DNA of 31,039 bases from a virus: positions 1-31,039 of IMG/VR virus record IMGVR_UViG_3300034093_000500, one strand, 5' to 3'. The translations under genes and the position numbers were made by a program. The notes beneath the pieces were generated by a model, which had not been told where the DNA came from, searched no databases, and worked only from the letters and a program-made list of their open reading frames with translations. Positions 3,077-30,617 of the stretch are shown here, in pieces (the first letter of the stretch is position 1; each line of letters opens with the position of its first letter).

Positions 3077-3727
3077 TTAATATTTTCCTGATGCAAGTAC
3101 TATCTTGCAAATGTGTTCTAATCGTTCTATATGTTCGTATGCTCGCCATGGACTTGTGTCAATAGCTACAACTCCGTGGCCTTTAATACCTACAATATCA
3201 TAGGCAATATTGCCAGCGTTGTCTAATTGTAACATCTTATGGCATTCATCTGCAAGCTCTTGGCTAATAGGAGCAACATCGCCCACGTTGGGTGCTACTT
3301 TGGTATAACGATTTAATTCTGGAAAGTCTGCACTTACAGTACTCAAATCAATGCCGGCATGCATGGCCGCAATACAGTAAGTAGGATGAACGTGTACCAC
3401 CACACGGACCTCTCCTGTATGCTGTCCCATTTCCTTTTGTAATCCAAAGTGTAATGGTAGTTCACCACTAGGCTTTAAGTTAGCACTAATCTCAGTGTAC
3501 TCTAACTCTTTGATTGCATGATACAATCGAGGAGGTTGATCATAGTAGCCTTTCTCAATGCCAATCTTCTTAAACTGATCCGGCTGAAGTGTTTGTTTAC
3601 GCACACCACTTGGTGTAATGTAAAAGTGGTCACGGTCGTGATGTCGTATACTTACATTGCCATCACGACTGGTTATCCAGTTACGCTTATAAGCGTCTAC
3701 CATTATGTCACATATAGTTTCTAACAT
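3077..3727 (-). CDS. Class II aldolase/adducin-family protein
   Basis: 216 residues, the usual length of the AraD/FucA family. The zinc-site residues are all present: HxH at H112/H114 (VVHVHPTYC), H184 (KGHGVVAI), and acidic E89 (PSGELPLHF). The GNVSIR and ITPSGV segments near residues 23-42 bind the phosphate in FucA-type enzymes. It should therefore be an active metal aldolase or epimerase, substrate unknown. The start overlaps the nrdA stop as TAATG and nrdB starts 1 nt after it, so it is translated as part of the reductase operon, which is an unusual setting. Confidence 0.85.
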   Translation of the reverse strand: MLETICDIMVDAYKRNWITSRDGNVSIRHHDRDHFYITPSGVRKQTLQPDQFKKIGIEKGYYDQPPRLYHAIKELEYTEISANLKPSGELPLHFGLQKEMGQHTGEVRVVVHVHPTYCIAAMHAGIDLSTVSADFPELNRYTKVAPNVGDVAPISQELADECHKMLQLDNAGNIAYDIVGIKGHGVVAIDTSPWRAYEHIERLEHICKIVLASGKY

Positions 3728-9239: not shown

Positions 9240-9268
9240 ATTATATAGCACTATGTCACGAAAGTCAA
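9240..9268 (-). promoter_or_regulatory. Near-consensus sigma70 promoter for the nuclease gene
   Basis: TTGACT (9263-9268), 17-bp spacer and TATAAT (9240-9245). The -10 box ends 5 nt before the ATG at 9234. The -35 region reaches the 3' end of the preceding gene. Confidence 0.75.
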
Positions 9269-9576
9269 CCTATCATTTTGGCAGCTGCTCGTTTTGCAGC
9301 TGTTTTTACATTAGCCATGGCTTTGTCTTTATCTCCAGGTTGTCCTGGTTCTTTGACTTTATTTTTTGTTTTGATTGTAATGCCATTCTCGTCAAACTTG
9401 TCAACTAGACTTTTCATTTGAGGATTAGCATCGAATTGTGATTTGAATGCATCGTAGTCAACTTCTTGGCCAGTTGTATTCTGCATCATTTTAGATATTG
9501 CCGGCCAGCTAAATTGTGCTGATGTATTTTTTGAGTCTGCTCGGCTTTGCAAGTTAGTTAAGATGCGGATAACCAT
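9265..9576 (-). CDS. 103-residue protein, probably the frameshift extension of the 304-residue protein
   Basis: As a separate ORF it starts at an ATG (9574-9576) lying in the loop of an 11-bp hairpin and has no convincing Shine-Dalgarno sequence. Upstream of that ATG the frame stays open (V N E D A D) back to the A-run of the previous gene, so a -1 shift there would join both proteins into about 413 residues. The first half is helical (ILTNLQSRADSKN...), the tail is lysine/alanine rich (KAMANVKTAAKRAAAKMIG) and may bind nucleic acid. No family recognised. See the frameshift feature and finding. Confidence 0.65.
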   Translation of the reverse strand: MVIRILTNLQSRADSKNTSAQFSWPAISKMMQNTTGQEVDYDAFKSQFDANPQMKSLVDKFDENGITIKTKNKVKEPGQPGDKDKAMANVKTAAKRAAAKMIG

Positions 9577-24884: not shown

Positions 24885-24959
24885 TTACACTGGACTATAG
24901 GGATTACGTGGACGATCAGTACCATCGTCCTCTGGGTATACTGGGTATTCGTTTTCCAT
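24885..24959 (-). CDS. Tiny 24-residue acidic ORF
   Basis: The ATG overlaps the nuclease stop (TAATG), and the ORF stop runs into the AAGGAAA ribosome site of the lipoprotein gene. The peptide is acidic with many Pro and Tyr (MENEYPVYPEDD..., ends NPYSPV). No homologue known to me. It could be a real micropeptide or a coupling device; evidence is the junction only. Confidence 0.4.
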   Translation of the reverse strand: MENEYPVYPEDDGTDRPRNPYSPV

Positions 24960-25399
24960 TACTGGCACCAACTTTGTTTGGCATCGCCGTAGTACTCGCG
25001 AGCATGACCATTACTGATAAGTCCCTGTCGAATGCTCTGTCCGTTTACCAAGATATCTCCCAATATACGGCCACCAAACTTATCCCATCCATAGATAATA
25101 ACTTGGTGCTTTGGGTGAGATTGAATGGCTTGGGTTGTAAATTTACTCGCCAGTTGTGCTCTTTGATCTTCTTGGGGGCATTGAGCTCTAAATCCTTTTT
25201 CTGGCGTGTCGACTCCGTAGATTCTAACAGCAAGCTCTGGTTTAAGTGGTAATGGTAGAAAGGGGGCGGCGATTACAATAGTATCGCCATCACTCACTCT
25301 AATAATTTGTGCGTCATAAGTTGCTGACTTTGATGGCATCTTGCCTTGTGCTAGTGCCAATGCCGGGACTAACAATAATAGGGCTAATAATTTTTTCAT
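24959..25399 (-). CDS. Secreted staphylococcal-nuclease-like nuclease
   Basis: 146 residues. A cleavable signal peptide (MKKLLALLLLVPALALAQG) precedes an SNase domain. Visible sites: SDGDTIVI (D37-G-D39-T40), R59, YGVDTPEKG (D64, E67) and KFGGRILGDI (R111), matching the calcium-binding and catalytic residues of nuclease. The end has paired cysteines (QCPQED and SWCQ). Function: DNA/RNA degradation in the periplasm or outside. AACACGGAG precedes the ATG, and AATAAATA lies 21 nt upstream. Confidence 0.85.
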   Translation of the reverse strand: MKKLLALLLLVPALALAQGKMPSKSATYDAQIIRVSDGDTIVIAAPFLPLPLKPELAVRIYGVDTPEKGFRAQCPQEDQRAQLASKFTTQAIQSHPKHQVIIYGWDKFGGRILGDILVNGQSIRQGLISNGHAREYYGDAKQSWCQ

Positions 25400-25420: not shown

Positions 25421-25428
25421 TATTTATT
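25421..25428 (-). promoter_or_regulatory. Late-type octamer AATAAATA
   Basis: 21 nt before the nuclease ATG (25399), just past the terminator of the agt transcript. Confidence 0.5.
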
Positions 25429-25429
25429 C

Positions 25430-25457
25430 AAAAAAATAGGATCTATATAAGATCCTA
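25430..25457 (-). terminator. Rho-independent terminator after agt
   Basis: 7-bp stem TAGGATC/GATCCTA (25451-25457 with 25437-25443), 7-nt loop, followed by T7 on the minus strand. Ends the plcP-agt transcript before the nuclease promoter. Confidence 0.8.
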
Positions 25458-25523: not shown

Positions 25524-26525
25524 TTATGTTTTTGTTACAAGATTGTCACGAAATATATGCCAAGCACGTTCCCATGTCCAACGTTGACTGCCTGCCAACA
25601 CTGTATCTCTATCTAATAGTAGAGCACCTGTAACAGCTTGGACTAAGTCCTCATTCATACAGCCTGTAATGCCTTCGTCAACTACGTCCAACGGTCCTTG
25701 ACATGGGTATGCAGCAACCGGAGTTCCACAAGCCATTGCTTCAATCATAACAAGTCCAAATGTTTCCCAACGACTTGGAAACACAAACACATCTGCCATA
25801 GCAAAGTATTTGGCTAGTTCTTGTCCGCGTTTGGCACCTACAAATTTTACATCAGGATAGTTTTCCTTGTACTCTTCCAACATAGGGCCATCGCCTACCA
25901 TGAACTTGACACCTTCATAGGGCATTTCAAAGAAGGCTTCTAGATTCTTTTCTTTACTGACTCTGCTAACACAAACTAGAATAGGACCGTTAACTACTGT
26001 AGGTACACGATGACTCGGATTGAATATACTACGGTCAACTCCCCTAGTCCAAGAAATAACATCTCCATCAAAACCATGTGACCGTAACTCTTGAACCATT
26101 GTGTCAGTTGTGGTTAGTACCTTGCCACTGTGCTTGTGGAACCAGCGAACTAGAGGCCAAGTAATGGCTTCAGGTATTCCAAATAAAGCACGGAGTCCTT
26201 CAGGAAACTTAGTATGATAAGCAGTATTGTAGCGAAGATTATGTTTTGAAAGATATTTTCTAGCACACAGACCAACAGGACCCTCTGTGGCGATATGGAT
26301 ATAATCCGCACTGACCTCCTCAATCTTCTTGCCCATCGCCCTTGGATAGGCAATCTTGACTTCGTTGTAGCCAGGACAATCAAAGTAGCGGAAGTCCCGG
26401 GGAGTAATGTAAACAACGTGATAACCATCCAAAACCGCACAAGTCTCAATATTTTTATATGTTGTGACCACGCCATTGATCTGCTCCGGTAAGTTATCAG
26501 TTATGATTAAGATTGTTTTTGACAT
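25524..26525 (-). CDS. agt: Agt-like lipid glycosyltransferase (GT4)
   Basis: 333 residues, whole GT-B enzyme. Visible: QINGVV (acceptor side, 16-20), YHTKFPEG, SRVSKEKN (R188, K193 for the sugar-nucleotide phosphates), VGDGP, and the ETFGLVMIE E-x7-E motif (E254, E262). The layout (PxxFRxxxCPxYxE, IHIATEGPxGL, WTRGVD) closely resembles bacterial Agt, which adds glucose or glucuronic acid to diacylglycerol. Agt works with PlcP in the phosphorus-saving lipid remodelling of proteobacteria. It follows plcP by 21 nt here, the same partner order as in bacteria. The resemblance is from memory, not a search, and the sugar is unknown. Confidence 0.75.
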   Translation of the reverse strand: MSKTILIITDNLPEQINGVVTTYKNIETCAVLDGYHVVYITPRDFRYFDCPGYNEVKIAYPRAMGKKIEEVSADYIHIATEGPVGLCARKYLSKHNLRYNTAYHTKFPEGLRALFGIPEAITWPLVRWFHKHSGKVLTTTDTMVQELRSHGFDGDVISWTRGVDRSIFNPSHRVPTVVNGPILVCVSRVSKEKNLEAFFEMPYEGVKFMVGDGPMLEEYKENYPDVKFVGAKRGQELAKYFAMADVFVFPSRWETFGLVMIEAMACGTPVAAYPCQGPLDVVDEGITGCMNEDLVQAVTGALLLDRDTVLAGSQRWTWERAWHIFRDNLVTKT

Positions 26526-26546
26526 GTTGCTATTACTTTAAATGAA

Positions 26547-27431
26547 TCAAACTTCAACCAACTGGTCATTGTTTTTCTTGCTTGTTCGCAGTCTGTCTGA
26601 TTCGGAAATGCTAGGGTCACCCTGCCCGGAATGTCCTTCGGATCGTTTACGTGCATTGCTAGTATTATCAGTATCCACATTATCCTTCTCCTTGGTCCAG
26701 GTGATTATTTCCCACTGCCCACTGTGATGTTCTACAAGTGCGGTACAAGATTCAACCCAGTCGCCATCATTCATATATATTATGCCGTCTATCTCTTTAA
26801 TCTCTGCGTGATGTATGTGGCCGCATATGACACCGTCAAAACCACGCTTCTTGCAATAGGCCACTAAATTGCGTTCAAATTGAAATATAAAGTCCACTGC
26901 TTTCTTAACTCGTGCTTTGAGATACTTGCTTAGACTCCAATAGCCAAAACCCATGCGGTGACGTAGCCAATTAAACTTACTATTGGCAGATAGTATAAAG
27001 TCATATGCTTTATCGCCAAGGAACGCTAACCAAGGAGCAAGACGGGTAATACCGTCGAACAAGTCTCCATGCGTGACTAGGTAGTGTTTAGTGTCTACAC
27101 CAATGTGTTCAAATTGATTAACCACTTCTACATTGCCAAAGTTAATGCCATAAGGCATAAGTGGTCGGAGAAATTCATCGTGATTACCTGCTACGTAGAT
27201 TACTCGTGTACCACGTTTAGCGTGTCCAAGTATACGTCTTACAACGTTGGTATGACTTTGCTTCCAACGCCATTTATTTTGTTGTATGCGCCACACATCT
27301 AATATATCTCCAACGAGATAAAGTGTTTCGCATGTATTGTGTTTGAGAAAGTTGTTTAGCTTGTCAGCTTGACTATCTCTAGTTCCTAAATGTACATCAC
27401 TAACAAAAATAGAGCGATAAGTTTTTAGCAT
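26547..27431 (-). CDS. plcP: PlcP-like phospholipase C / metallophosphoesterase
   Basis: 294 residues. Calcineurin-type metallophosphoesterase: SDVHLG (D12, H14), GDILD (D42), GNHDE (82-86), VTHGDLFD (H121), GHIHHA (H205, H207). The family is COG2908 (LpxH-related). Beyond the motifs, LVGDILD-x-WR, KGxRVIYVxGNHDEFLR, FNWLRHRMGF-YWSLSKYLK and NDGDWVESCTALVEHH match the bacterial PlcP subgroup I remember better than LpxH. PlcP splits phospholipids into diacylglycerol and phosphate head group. The C-terminal about 48 residues are a hydrophilic extra tail. Its late-type octamer ends 6 nt before the ATG with no Shine-Dalgarno sequence. Confidence 0.75.
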   Translation of the reverse strand: MLKTYRSIFVSDVHLGTRDSQADKLNNFLKHNTCETLYLVGDILDVWRIQQNKWRWKQSHTNVVRRILGHAKRGTRVIYVAGNHDEFLRPLMPYGINFGNVEVVNQFEHIGVDTKHYLVTHGDLFDGITRLAPWLAFLGDKAYDFILSANSKFNWLRHRMGFGYWSLSKYLKARVKKAVDFIFQFERNLVAYCKKRGFDGVICGHIHHAEIKEIDGIIYMNDGDWVESCTALVEHHSGQWEIITWTKEKDNVDTDNTSNARKRSEGHSGQGDPSISESDRLRTSKKNNDQLVEV

Positions 27432-27437
27432 AGCTAA

Positions 27438-27445
27438 TATTTATC
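27438..27445 (-). promoter_or_regulatory. Late-type octamer GATAAATA, 6 nt before plcP ATG
   Basis: Ends 6 nt before the ATG at 27431 with no Shine-Dalgarno sequence. If used, it would give a leaderless plcP-agt mRNA. Confidence 0.5.
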
Positions 27446-27476
27446 GCTCTAGAGTGTGTGTAATGTTACAGTTGTG

Positions 27477-27655: not shown

Positions 27656-27663
27656 TATTTATT
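27656..27663 (-). promoter_or_regulatory. Late-type octamer AATAAATA
   Basis: 20 nt before the ATG at 27635; it touches the stop of the DUF454 gene. Confidence 0.5.
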
Positions 27664-28084
27664 AGAAATTATTGTTGAACCAACCTATTTTGCGGCCTGC
27701 GGCGATGCGACGATCGTGCTCTTCTACACTGCTAGGATAGCGCCATGCCCATATAGCTGTGCAAGCCATAAAGATAGCAGTGTAAACTATACCTTTTGTT
27801 GACACATTCCCTACAATCATTAAGATTAAACTAAATGACATAGATGCTAGCATAAAGAATTTAAGCTTCAATGGAAATACCCTGCGCCGATTCCAATTAT
27901 TAATAAATTTGCCAAAGATCTTGTGGTTCATTATCCAGGCATGCATTCTAGGACTACTTTTTGCAAAACAATACGCAGAAAATACCACAAATGGACTGTA
28001 AGGAATGCCCGGAGTAATAACTCCTATATAGGCAAACCCCAGACTAATGAATCCCAGTATCTTCCACCACAGTTGTTTTATCAC
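27662..28084 (-). CDS. ybaN: YbaN/DUF454 inner-membrane protein
   Basis: 140 residues starting at GTG 28084 in a GTGA overlap with the HNH stop and with GGAG 6 nt upstream. The N-terminus is [27 protein letters not shown], then [16 protein letters not shown], two hydrophobic segments near the middle and C-terminal half, and a soluble charged end. This matches the DUF454/YbaN family of small membrane proteins in size and in the GxxxPxxP..FxxxSxYCFAKSS pattern. Function of the family is unknown. In a phage next to plcP-agt, a membrane-lipid role is a reasonable inference. Confidence 0.75.
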
Positions 28085-28590
28085 AAGTACTCCAACCAAG
28101 CATCGTGTCGTACTTGAAATGGCAACCGCTTACGCTTGTTAACAAGTTCGTAAAAGTCTGGCTTGTAAGGTTTGTACTTAGGCTTGTACTTAGTACTAGC
28201 ACCTTTATTAGCATTGCAGGTTGCACAGGCAGTTACTGTGTTTTCAAAAGTAGTTTTGCCGCCTTTGCTCACAGGTAACACGTGGTCTAATGTACAGTCT
28301 TTTTTCTGTAATACATCTTCACAGTATAAACAAGTATATAGATCTCGTAAGAATACATTGCTCTTTGAGAAACGCACAGTAGTTTTGGCTTTCATATATT
28401 CTTTTAATATGATAACACTTGGCACAGGAGTTTCCCAACGAGCTGATCTTACAATCCAATCGTCATGCCATGCCAGTACATGGGCCTTGTCTAAGACCAT
28501 GTACTTGATAGCTTCTTGCCAATCAATTGTTGAGATTGGTAAGAAACTGATAGGTGCGCCATCGGCGTTGAGTACGAGACAATCTGACAT
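28081..28590 (-). CDS. HNH endonuclease
   Basis: 169 residues. The C-terminal half has the zinc-binding HNH core: TCLYCED (C87, C90), LDHVLPVSKGG (D102-H103), ENTVTACATCNANKG (N117, C122, C125, N126). The N-terminal about 75 residues carry the conserved pre-domain seen in bacterial HNH proteins of this type (MSDCLVLNADGAPISFLP). It may nick DNA for packaging or act on host DNA, or be a homing-like nuclease; the neighbours do not decide it. It has its own sigma70 promoter, with a 33-nt leader lacking a clear Shine-Dalgarno sequence. Confidence 0.85.
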   Translation of the reverse strand: MSDCLVLNADGAPISFLPISTIDWQEAIKYMVLDKAHVLAWHDDWIVRSARWETPVPSVIILKEYMKAKTTVRFSKSNVFLRDLYTCLYCEDVLQKKDCTLDHVLPVSKGGKTTFENTVTACATCNANKGASTKYKPKYKPYKPDFYELVNKRKRLPFQVRHDAWLEYL

Positions 28591-28623: not shown

Positions 28624-28652
28624 ATTATACAGTCTTATTTGTATTTAAGCAA
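28624..28652 (-). promoter_or_regulatory. Sigma70 promoter for the HNH-ybaN operon
   Basis: TTGCTT (28647-28652), 17-bp spacer, TATAAT (28624-28629). Same -35 hexamer as the phasin promoter. The leader to the ATG at 28590 is about 30 nt. Confidence 0.65.
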
Positions 28653-29193
28653 GAACGGATTGAGCGAATTCACTACCTGAATGCTCAATTGCTTCGGTCC
28701 ATTGTGTTTGGCTATCTAGCTCAAATATAATCTGTTGAGATCCGGATGCAATTAGCCAACTGTTATTATGATTGTACGGAGGATTACCTTGTAATTCGTT
28801 TTCAAGTTGTCCCGATGTCCATCCACACAGGCCCACAAATAATCTCCATACTTTTGGAATGTTGCCCATAGCAAGGTTAGTTAAAATGTCAGGGCTAGAA
28901 CTTAGACTAAATTTATCGTTGATACTCATTGTGTTCCCACAACTCCATTCGGAACTGTGTAGCATAGTAAGTGCTTTAACATTAACTGGGCCGCCAACAT
29001 GGATATAGCCCGAGATATCTAAATTAATATTATGCTGGCTAGCAAATTCTGTAATAGTCATTTGACTTTGCTTGTTAAGCACTAATCCAACAGCACCGTT
29101 CTTGTGATGTTCTGTTAAAAAAATCACTGTCTTTTGCCAAAAGTTTCCTCTCACATTAGGAGGTGCGATTAGTAAGTTTCCTGTTAGATTCAT
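28645..29193 (-). CDS. yqgE: YqgE/AlgH-family protein (DUF179)
   Basis: 182 residues from the ATG at 29193, which overlaps the lysozyme stop (TAATG); the 33 codons upstream in frame are the shadow of that gene. Matches YqgE: starts MNLTGNLLIAPPNVRGNFW, then HKNGAVGLVLNKQSQM, YIHVGGPV, LCGWTSGQLENEL and SWLIASGS. Family function is poorly known (regulatory roles reported in Pseudomonas under the AlgH name). YqgE-like genes occur in T4-like aquatic phages; any host effect is unknown. Confidence 0.85.
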   Translation of the reverse strand: MNLTGNLLIAPPNVRGNFWQKTVIFLTEHHKNGAVGLVLNKQSQMTITEFASQHNINLDISGYIHVGGPVNVKALTMLHSSEWSCGNTMSINDKFSLSSSPDILTNLAMGNIPKVWRLFVGLCGWTSGQLENELQGNPPYNHNNSWLIASGSQQIIFELDSQTQWTEAIEHSGSEFAQSVLA

Positions 29194-30617
29194 TATACTG
29201 TAGCCGTTGATGGTAATAACGCAGCGGCATTGGCCACTCGTTGACTTGTGTGTAATCCAGCACTGCGTTCGTAATACTTGTCGAACACCCATGCCGCTTC
29301 ATCTGTAGTCTTGGCTCGCTTGAGCCAACTTGAAGCCTTGGATTCGGTGTTGTCTAACTCCCACTGGATAAATGCTAACTGATCTTCTAGCGTTGATCCT
29401 CTTATATTCTTGCCATAGGCTTTAGTAAAGTTTGCTTGTCTAGGAGGGTGCCACTGGGCTATTCCGTAGGCAAGGCCACCGTCACCAACGGCATCAATTT
29501 TTAAGTTTGCACCAGACTCTGCTTGTAGGTTTCCTACAATGCCAGCAGACTGTTCCGGAGTCCAGCCTTTAGCTATAAAATATTCTACAGCTTTCTTAGC
29601 ATTACCTGTCGAACCAGCGGCCGCACCCGATCTACCTGCACCGGAACCAGGTTGATAACCGATATCTGCTAGTGTGCTTTGCTTCAACTTACCAGCTACT
29701 TCAGGTTTAGATTTTAAAATATCATTTAACTTTGCAACAGTTTCTTTATTTGGTTCGCCGCTAGATTCTAAACTGTTATCAGCTTGAAACTTTTTAATTG
29801 CACCATTAGTTTCTGGTCCACGAATACCGTCAACACCGTGACGTGGCAGATCATATCCTAGTGCCATTAATGCTTTTTGCATATCTGCAACTTCGGGACT
29901 TCTCTTTGATGTAGGAACAGTTACATTGAATGCTGTTGGCGCTGCCGGAGTTGCGCCAGGTGCACCTGCTGCACCTGTAACAGGTTTAACTATTGGAGAT
30001 CCATCTCGTTTGAATCCTGCAATCTTATCTAGGTTAGGTCCCGATGACTGTGCTGCCGGTGGAGCTACCGCCGATCCAGCTTGTTTTAATTTTGTATAGC
30101 CGCCGTAAGGGTGTATACCATCGCCTCGTCCCGAATTAAGTCCTGGGTCAAAGTCTTCTAACGGTCCTAGAAACTTAGCGCCATTTGCTGCTGCCGACGC
30201 TGCAAGTTTTTCATTTATTTTTTCACCTTCAAAATTTACAAAATATGTTCCATACTGATTGGTAAATGTTTTAGATTTAGCACTGCCTGTTCCTACTAGT
30301 GCTACACTGGCACCGGCATCTTTTAGTAATTTTAGTTGCTGATCAATTGGACCCATGTTCAGGGTTTGCTTCTGTCCGTTAGGTCTTTCGTAGGTACCGT
30401 TACTAGCGCCACTACTTAATATTACAGTAGCGCCTTTGGCTTTGCCGCTTTGTACAAATGTCTGTACAAATCCCAATACCTGCTGTGGACTTGCGCCACC
30501 TACAGCTCTTCCTGGTACTGTTTGGCCGCCGTTGATACCAACAGCAATACTATCGCCAATAACTACAACATTGTTTTCAGCTTCTTTTAAAACTGTTTTA
30601 AATTCTTTAAATCTCAT
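29193..30617 (-). CDS. Fused SGNH hydrolase, peptidoglycan-binding and tail lysozyme protein
   Basis: 474 residues, three domains. Residues 16-175: SGNH hydrolase with GDSIAVG (S23), SGASNG (N74) and DGIHP (D166, H169). Residues 239-283: PG_binding_1 pattern (SPEVADMQKALMALGYDLP, DGIRGPETNGAIKKFQ). Residues 341-460: phage tail lysozyme-type domain (AVEYFIAKGWTPEQSAGIVGN, LQAESGAN with E367). Low-complexity linkers join them. The start MRFKEFKTVLKEAENN resembles a T4 capsid-targeting sequence with an LKE/A cut. The SGNH part may be a peptidoglycan O-acetylesterase clearing the way for the lysozyme. Confidence 0.85.
   Translation of the reverse strand: MRFKEFKTVLKEAENNVVVIGDSIAVGINGGQTVPGRAVGGASPQQVLGFVQTFVQSGKAKGATVILSSGASNGTYERPNGQKQTLNMGPIDQQLKLLKDAGASVALVGTGSAKSKTFTNQYGTYFVNFEGEKINEKLAASAAANGAKFLGPLEDFDPGLNSGRGDGIHPYGGYTKLKQAGSAVAPPAAQSSGPNLDKIAGFKRDGSPIVKPVTGAAGAPGATPAAPTAFNVTVPTSKRSPEVADMQKALMALGYDLPRHGVDGIRGPETNGAIKKFQADNSLESSGEPNKETVAKLNDILKSKPEVAGKLKQSTLADIGYQPGSGAGRSGAAAGSTGNAKKAVEYFIAKGWTPEQSAGIVGNLQAESGANLKIDAVGDGGLAYGIAQWHPPRQANFTKAYGKNIRGSTLEDQLAFIQWELDNTESKASSWLKRAKTTDEAAWVFDKYYERSAGLHTSQRVANAAALLPSTATV

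Follow-up and report, generated by a model that had tools for sequence, protein, structure and literature searches.

In bacteria, PlcP and Agt are tied by experiment to glycolipid synthesis under phosphorus stress, and their genes are paired in SAR11 HTCC7211, Agrobacterium and Sinorhizobium (PMC4796936, PMC8231724). In the type 3/5 plcP loci a different glycosyltransferase follows plcP (PMC4796936). Among phages, PlcP homologues occur in two cultured T4-like phages, Pelagibacter phage Mosig EXVC030M and Synechococcus phage S-SRM01, where they are annotated as LpxH and have neither agt nor a GT2 gene as neighbour. A survey of phage phosphorus-acquisition genes (pstS, phoD, ugpQ and others) makes no mention of plcP, lpxH or glycolipid (PMC10987575). 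A viral metatranscriptome from Lake Baikal lists lpxH as an auxiliary gene (PMC9611531), which possibly belongs to the same family as phage plcP. A regulatory precedent comes from T4, in which hairpins of the late-promoter kind block translation of e, soc, I-TevI and other genes on early read-through transcripts, while late transcripts begin inside the hairpin and thus escape the block (PMC2988022, PMC3014915).

We analysed an IMG/VR fragment of 31,039 bases (IMGVR_UViG_3300034093_000500), hereafter the window, which by its proteins is a T4-like phage. An earlier note on this DNA had proposed that two adjacent genes at 25524-27431 form a PlcP–Agt pair for lipid remodelling. The open reading frames lie exactly there, on the minus strand: a plcP-like metallophosphoesterase gene (26547..27431, 294 aa, Pfam Metallophos) comes first and an agt-like GT4 glycosyltransferase gene (25524..26525, 333 aa) follows 21 bp downstream. 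Judged by sequence, the interpretation as a lipid-remodelling pair is supported. The phage pair shares families, gene order and direct adjacency with the bacterial PlcP–Agt pair, and its catalytic and diacylglycerol (DAG)-site residues are largely identical. It differs in its location in T4-like phages behind a putative phage late promoter and start-site hairpin, in an Asp256 to Glu replacement, and in that phage agt is exchangeable for a GT2 gene. The phages with plcP and GT2 resemble the type 3/5 loci, but no curated model comes close to their GT2, a protein of about 238 aa. The window's PlcP-like protein is 47.5% identical to that of Mosig and 36.5% to that of S-SRM01. The phosphorus benefit presumed for the phage phosphorus-acquisition genes would be alike, and pstS co-occurs in some plcP loci; the plcP route, in contrast, would draw phosphorus from membrane lipid and rebuild the lipid.

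The plcP–glycosyltransferase pair in viral and cellular genomes

The search of virome contigs suggested in the earlier note found the pair to be widespread. Two scans yielded at least 595 plcP and at least 464 agt relatives, of which we retained the best 80 each. In these retrieved IMG/VR loci, whose ranking followed their similarity to the window and which are therefore no unbiased sample, plcP lies upstream of all agt genes with contig room (84/84), and a glycosyltransferase gene lies downstream of all plcP genes (139/139; agt in 94 and an unrelated GT2 in 45). The GT2-family gene is non-homologous to agt, sits in the agt slot 22-97 nt after plcP (L004-L081) and reaches at best 60.6 bits against a curated-model cut-off of 182. 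The secreted nuclease-like gene that lies downstream of agt in the window comes after GT2 in L041-L046, and the cassette therefore appears to have been swapped in place. The number of exchanges is uncertain, since parsimony on a quick plcP tree counts 16 changes and the well-supported branches force two.

When the PlcP of Mosig, which shares 48% identity with that of the window, served as query in a third scan, a divergent viral set was retrieved in which 57 of 77 plcP loci carry agt (43) or GT2 (14) homologues. In five plcP loci of this set a PstS relative is encoded no more than 4 kb away; four of the five were tested with Pfam, and PstS was confirmed in all four. All genes are on the same strand in the orders plcP–agt–pstS (L406), pstS–plcP–GT2 (L400) and pstS–porin–plcP–agt–(123-aa ORF)–family B DNA polymerase (L390). 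In Mosig, similarly, plcP adjoins a phosphate ABC transporter gene. PstS was seen only in the divergent set; a search of the 13 large contigs that belong to the same group as the window gave none. PhoH is encoded in 10 of these 13; it is frequent in phages and is weak evidence. No record matched both the plcP and the agt queries in a collection of 50,697 phage records.

The closest cellular plcP relatives (50-60% identity) come from Alphaproteobacteria, Betaproteobacteria and Campylobacterota. In most of them, and likewise in SAR11, agt lies directly behind plcP. The campylobacterotal copies adjoin psiE/pstC-like or phoB-like genes, as judged from the sequences without a profile test.

Other arrangements were met along the way. 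An alternative oxidase gene (L434 5728-6333, PF01786) adjoins plcP-agt in one viral contig, and an ORF resembling alternative oxidase does so in another (L408 3267-3881). In one record of 524,565 bp (IMGVR_UViG_3300027749_002876) plcP occurs twice, once with GT2 behind it (184 kb) and once with agt (82 kb); a jumbo phage could account for this, and so could a joined assembly.

An Agt-like glycosyltransferase

The agt-like gene encodes the Pfam domains Glyco_transf_4 and Glyco_trans_1_4, and its product is probably a diacylglycerol glycosyltransferase. Its AlphaFold (AF2) model (pLDDT 92) has a GT-B fold, and the nearest PDB folds are the GT4 enzymes BshA and MshA. The protein is 38-45% identical to cellular copies. 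The E. coli GT4 outgroup sequences of lipopolysaccharide (LPS) and colanic-acid synthesis (WaaG, WaaB, WcaC, WcaI and WcaL) had branches of 6-10 changes per site, too long to place them, and the tree was therefore rebuilt without these rows. In the rebuilt tree the glycosyltransferase falls in the Agt clade, as had been proposed: the viral copies form a single clade (100/100) beside SAR11 Agt (97/93). One SAR11 subgroup (L239, with the related L320 and L325) has Cys at the position of the catalytic His104 of GTcp, so not every SAR11 sequence in the tree is GTcp-like.

GTcp, the SAR11 enzyme, was characterised by mutagenesis (PMC8231724). Its donor and DAG residues G16, G82, G85, H104, R163, R190, K195, T257-G259, E264 and W320 are kept in the window, and with the exception of Asp256 all of its donor and DAG residues are kept in 100 of 100 viral copies. 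The signature Asp256 (TDTFG) is Glu254 (WETFG) in the window. Thus the full motif set described in the earlier note holds for PlcP and fails at this one position for Agt. Of 100 viral copies, 98 have Glu preceded by Trp; Asp is retained by two basal viral copies (L066 and L080) and by 42 of 43 cellular ones. Because of this replacement we call the protein Agt-like rather than Agt.

The replacement of Thr-Asp by Trp-Glu raises the possibility that PlcP yields diacylglycerol and that the Agt-like enzyme takes another donor or acceptor, giving a glycolipid unlike the product of SAR11 or Agrobacterium Agt. The near-uniform viral motif and the Asp of the two basal copies fit such a shift, and in GTcp the change D256E costs more than 90% of the activity, so the donor or acceptor may differ (PMC8231724). 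On the other hand, Glu is normal at this position in other GT4 enzymes, for example the structurally solved MshA (PMC8231724), and the remaining donor and DAG residues are all conserved. We regard a different donor or acceptor as possible, without favouring it. In L406, a UDP-glucose/GDP-mannose dehydrogenase-like gene (278-1105) lies upstream of plcP-agt-pstS and could be a source of UDP-glucuronate as sugar donor.

A late-promoter octamer and a covarying hairpin at the plcP start

The late-type octamer reported previously is present: a T4-type late-promoter octamer, GATAAATA, lies at 27438..27445 on the minus strand, 6 nt ahead of the plcP ATG, and has one mismatch to the T4 octamer TATAAATA. 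Of 104 distinct viral regions upstream of plcP, 56 contain a T4-type octamer (expected 0.016 per region), mostly GATAAATA and mostly 9-16 nt before the plcP start.

Folding and covariation point to a hairpin that spans the plcP start (27410..27451, minus strand). Its 5' arm, TAGAGCGATAA at 27451-27441, takes in part of the octamer; its 3' arm, TTATCGCTCTA at 27420-27410, is formed by plcP codons 4-8, and an inner stem TTAGC/GCTAA encloses the ATG. In 35 distinct sequences, for whose selection the octamer pattern counted and no pairing score was used, the hairpin has 94.8% of its cells paired, compared with 26-55% in slid controls. Double-changed cells number 48 in the same sample, compared with 15.3 +/- 2.7 in shuffles, none of which reached this value (0/500). 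The covarying changes include serine-codon switches (TCT, AGT, AGC) that are matched in the upstream arm. Among the 56 octamer-bearing starts, 40 have at least 6 of 7 pairs beyond the octamer, compared with 32% for swapped partners, a control that is high because sequence variants are shared; pairing is weak or absent in the other 16 (about 29%). A protein-bound DNA palindrome in place of an RNA hairpin would produce similar covariation.

The arrangement resembles the T4 hairpins of gene e, soc, I-TevI and segB, in which the late octamer lies in the 5' arm and the start is hidden (PMC2988022, PMC3014915). Unlike in these, the 3' arm at plcP lies within the coding sequence and there is no evident Shine-Dalgarno sequence: no clear one was seen before plcP in the window, where the start codon is itself enclosed by the hairpin. 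Late plcP transcripts may be leaderless. By analogy with T4, we infer that the hairpin would silence early read-through transcripts of plcP.

The dedicated terminator of the earlier description also has a counterpart. After agt lies an intrinsic-terminator-like hairpin with a T run (25427..25457, minus strand; 8-bp stem 25457-25437). A consensus terminator scan alone found 2, with 2.2 expected from shuffles; a terminator-like site lies within 140 nt of the agt stop in 18 of 76 relatives, compared with 1% of shuffles. Elsewhere in the window, the start of the gene at 9265-9576 is spanned by an 11-bp inverted repeat (AAGATGCGGAT / ATCCGCATCTT) without an octamer.

Predicted role of the cassette

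We consider it likely that plcP–agt is a phage-borne unit, expressed late, for the exchange of phospholipid for glycolipid, with the released phosphorus going to phage DNA; both the activity and the benefit are predictions. On early and middle read-through transcripts the hairpin would bury the plcP start and nothing would be made. Once the late octamer is in use, a shorter transcript without the 5' arm would allow translation of plcP and agt, a sequence of events modelled on T4. PlcP is predicted from homology to cut host phosphatidylglycerol or phosphatidylethanolamine into diacylglycerol and a soluble phospho-headgroup. The Agt-like GT4, or GT2 in sister phages, would then add sugar from a UDP-sugar to the diacylglycerol, so that the membrane bulk would be preserved and phosphorus freed for phage DNA.

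Several lines of evidence argue for this exchange. The phosphoesterase belongs to the PlcP clade and not to LpxH (see below), agt follows plcP directly in most cellular relatives, and all GTcp donor and DAG residues but one are conserved. The pairing is complete in the retrieved loci even where a non-homologous GT2 replaces agt. In Mosig, moreover, plcP adjoins the phosphate transporter gene. The late timing is suggested by the octamer and the covarying hairpin, which match the T4 mechanism (PMC2988022, PMC3014915).

The main rival accepts the same chemistry and gives it another purpose, a late change of membrane charge or curvature that serves superinfection exclusion, protection of the cell until assembly is done, or preparation and timing of lysis, with phosphate release as a side effect. 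The octamer and start-site hairpin favour such a purpose, as T4 controls its lysozyme gene e and soc in this way (PMC3014915, PMC2988022), and the exchangeable glycosyltransferases suggest that the nature of the product matters. Late timing is also less obvious for phosphate supply than for an assembly or lysis gene; early expression would fit better. Against this purpose stand the pstS genes beside plcP-agt or plcP-gt2 in several viruses, the transporter gene in Mosig, and the psiE, pst and phoB-like neighbours of bacterial plcP relatives. The pstS neighbours in divergent viruses speak for the phosphorus role, and we think a mainly membrane-directed purpose the less likely one.

More broadly, we see an even chance that the cassette is a modular one in a large group of aquatic T4-like phages, consisting of a phospholipase C and an interchangeable GT4 or GT2, joined in some cases by pstS and a porin, whose translation would be delayed by the hairpin to late infection and which would replace phospholipids by glycolipids and recycle lipid phosphorus into virions.

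The phosphoesterase groups with PlcP and apart from LpxH

The predicted activity of PlcP is the hydrolysis of phospholipid to diacylglycerol. An LpxH-like phosphoesterase acting with the glycosyltransferase on lipid A or LPS is the reading implied by database records, which name such phage genes UDP-2,3-diacylglucosamine hydrolase. The phylogeny with which the earlier note proposed to decide between the two families placed the phosphoesterase with PlcP: a maximum-likelihood tree separates the 12 LpxH rows, including that of E. coli, from every PlcP row (100/100) and puts the window's viral group among the latter. The window's plcP product scores far under the cut-offs of two LpxH models (43.6 bits against 134 and 30.9 bits against 190). 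Among 46 genomes from the class of Cupriavidus, true LpxH proteins score 207-333 bits on the LpxH model, and the PlcP paralogues found in a dozen of these genomes about 37-56 bits (window 42), bar two cases, a short fragment of 26 bits and an 85-bit protein that is a piece of a split LpxH. LpxH and the PlcP family are thus present side by side in single genomes. The metal-ligand motifs SDxHLG, GDxxD, GNHD, HGD and GHIH are invariant or nearly so in 28 viral and cellular PlcP relatives, and GNHD is GNRD in E. coli LpxH.

The protein consists of a core (residues 1-250) and a dispensable, disordered C-terminal tail (about 248-294), inside which some relatives have a stop codon. Its AlphaFold model is of moderate quality (pLDDT 74; tail below 50). 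LpxH structures are the top matches to this model; no PlcP structure turned up, and the match is what the common fold would lead one to expect. Scores, tree and the GNHD motif lead us to reject an LpxH identity for the phosphoesterase and, with a glycosyltransferase of the Agt clade beside it, a role in lipid A or LPS is highly improbable.

Phage identity of the window and host signals

The window encodes phage tail lysozyme, virion structural protein, NrdA/NrdB and RecB-like exonuclease families. Its ribonucleotide reductase subunits are closest to those of T4-like phages of Xanthomonas and Stenotrophomonas (NrdA 52-59%). The T4 major capsid protein gp23 was found in 7 of 14 records, comprising the window and 13 large contigs of its group, and is absent from the window itself. 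That bacterial DNA was misclassified as viral is scarcely credible, even though the window is a fragment without a packaging gene and two 'phage' records met in passing (MT836169 and Acinetobacter 'phage' MD-2021a) are bacterial, given these phage families, gp23 in half of the records, the family B DNA polymerase right behind agt in L390, and the clades of their own formed by viral plcP and agt copies.

The first of the two rejected records, MT836169.1 (labelled Bacteriophage sp.), encodes a PlcP homologue with a different glycosyltransferase and genes resembling polyphosphate kinase, exopolyphosphatase and tyrosyl-tRNA synthetase. The second, CAKLQH020000017.1 ('Acinetobacter phage MD-2021a'), carries the bacterial housekeeping genes nagZ, prc, ndk and iscX.

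Host signals conflict. NrdA points to phages of Xanthomonas and Stenotrophomonas, agt to SAR11 and plcP to a Methylotenera gene, which is the nearest cellular sister (99/93) to the viral plcP group that includes the window. This gene, on a 669-kb contig of a Methylotenera MAG (L165), is a solitary plcP without a glycosyltransferase neighbour.

Other genes of the window include one of the class II aldolase family (3077-3727), flanked by the phage nrdA and nrdB, a DUF454 (YbaN-like) membrane protein gene (27662-28099) and an AlgH/YqgE (PF02622) gene (28645-29292) that is also present in another plcP-agt phage (L434 1041-1586). Directly 3' of plcP-agt lies a gene for an SNase-family nuclease (24959-25399) whose N-terminus resembles a signal peptide; an octamer precedes it.

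Significance

The earlier note knew of no characterised phage system of this kind. This stands for the pair, and we found no description of a phage plcP–glycosyltransferase pair, of the GT4/GT2 exchange or of late-hairpin control in the open literature (subscription papers and preprints lay outside this scope). It does not stand for PlcP alone, which cultured phages already encode, labelled as LpxH; nor is either enzyme family new. What appears to be new at the level of control is the covarying hairpin over the plcP start, whose 5' arm contains a T4-type late octamer. As the pair is common in virome contigs and yet labelled LpxH, published lists of auxiliary genes may misfile it under lipid A biosynthesis. 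Phage Mosig and its host Pelagibacter HTCC1062, which are in culture, would allow part of the idea to be tested directly.

Phosphate-uptake genes are known in phages. Membrane phospholipid is a substantial pool of cell phosphorus, and phage production is phosphorus-hungry. If the proposed exchange is true, the conversion of host phospholipid to a non-phosphorus lipid would be a different route to phosphorus for these phages, and it would alter the envelope of the infected cells.
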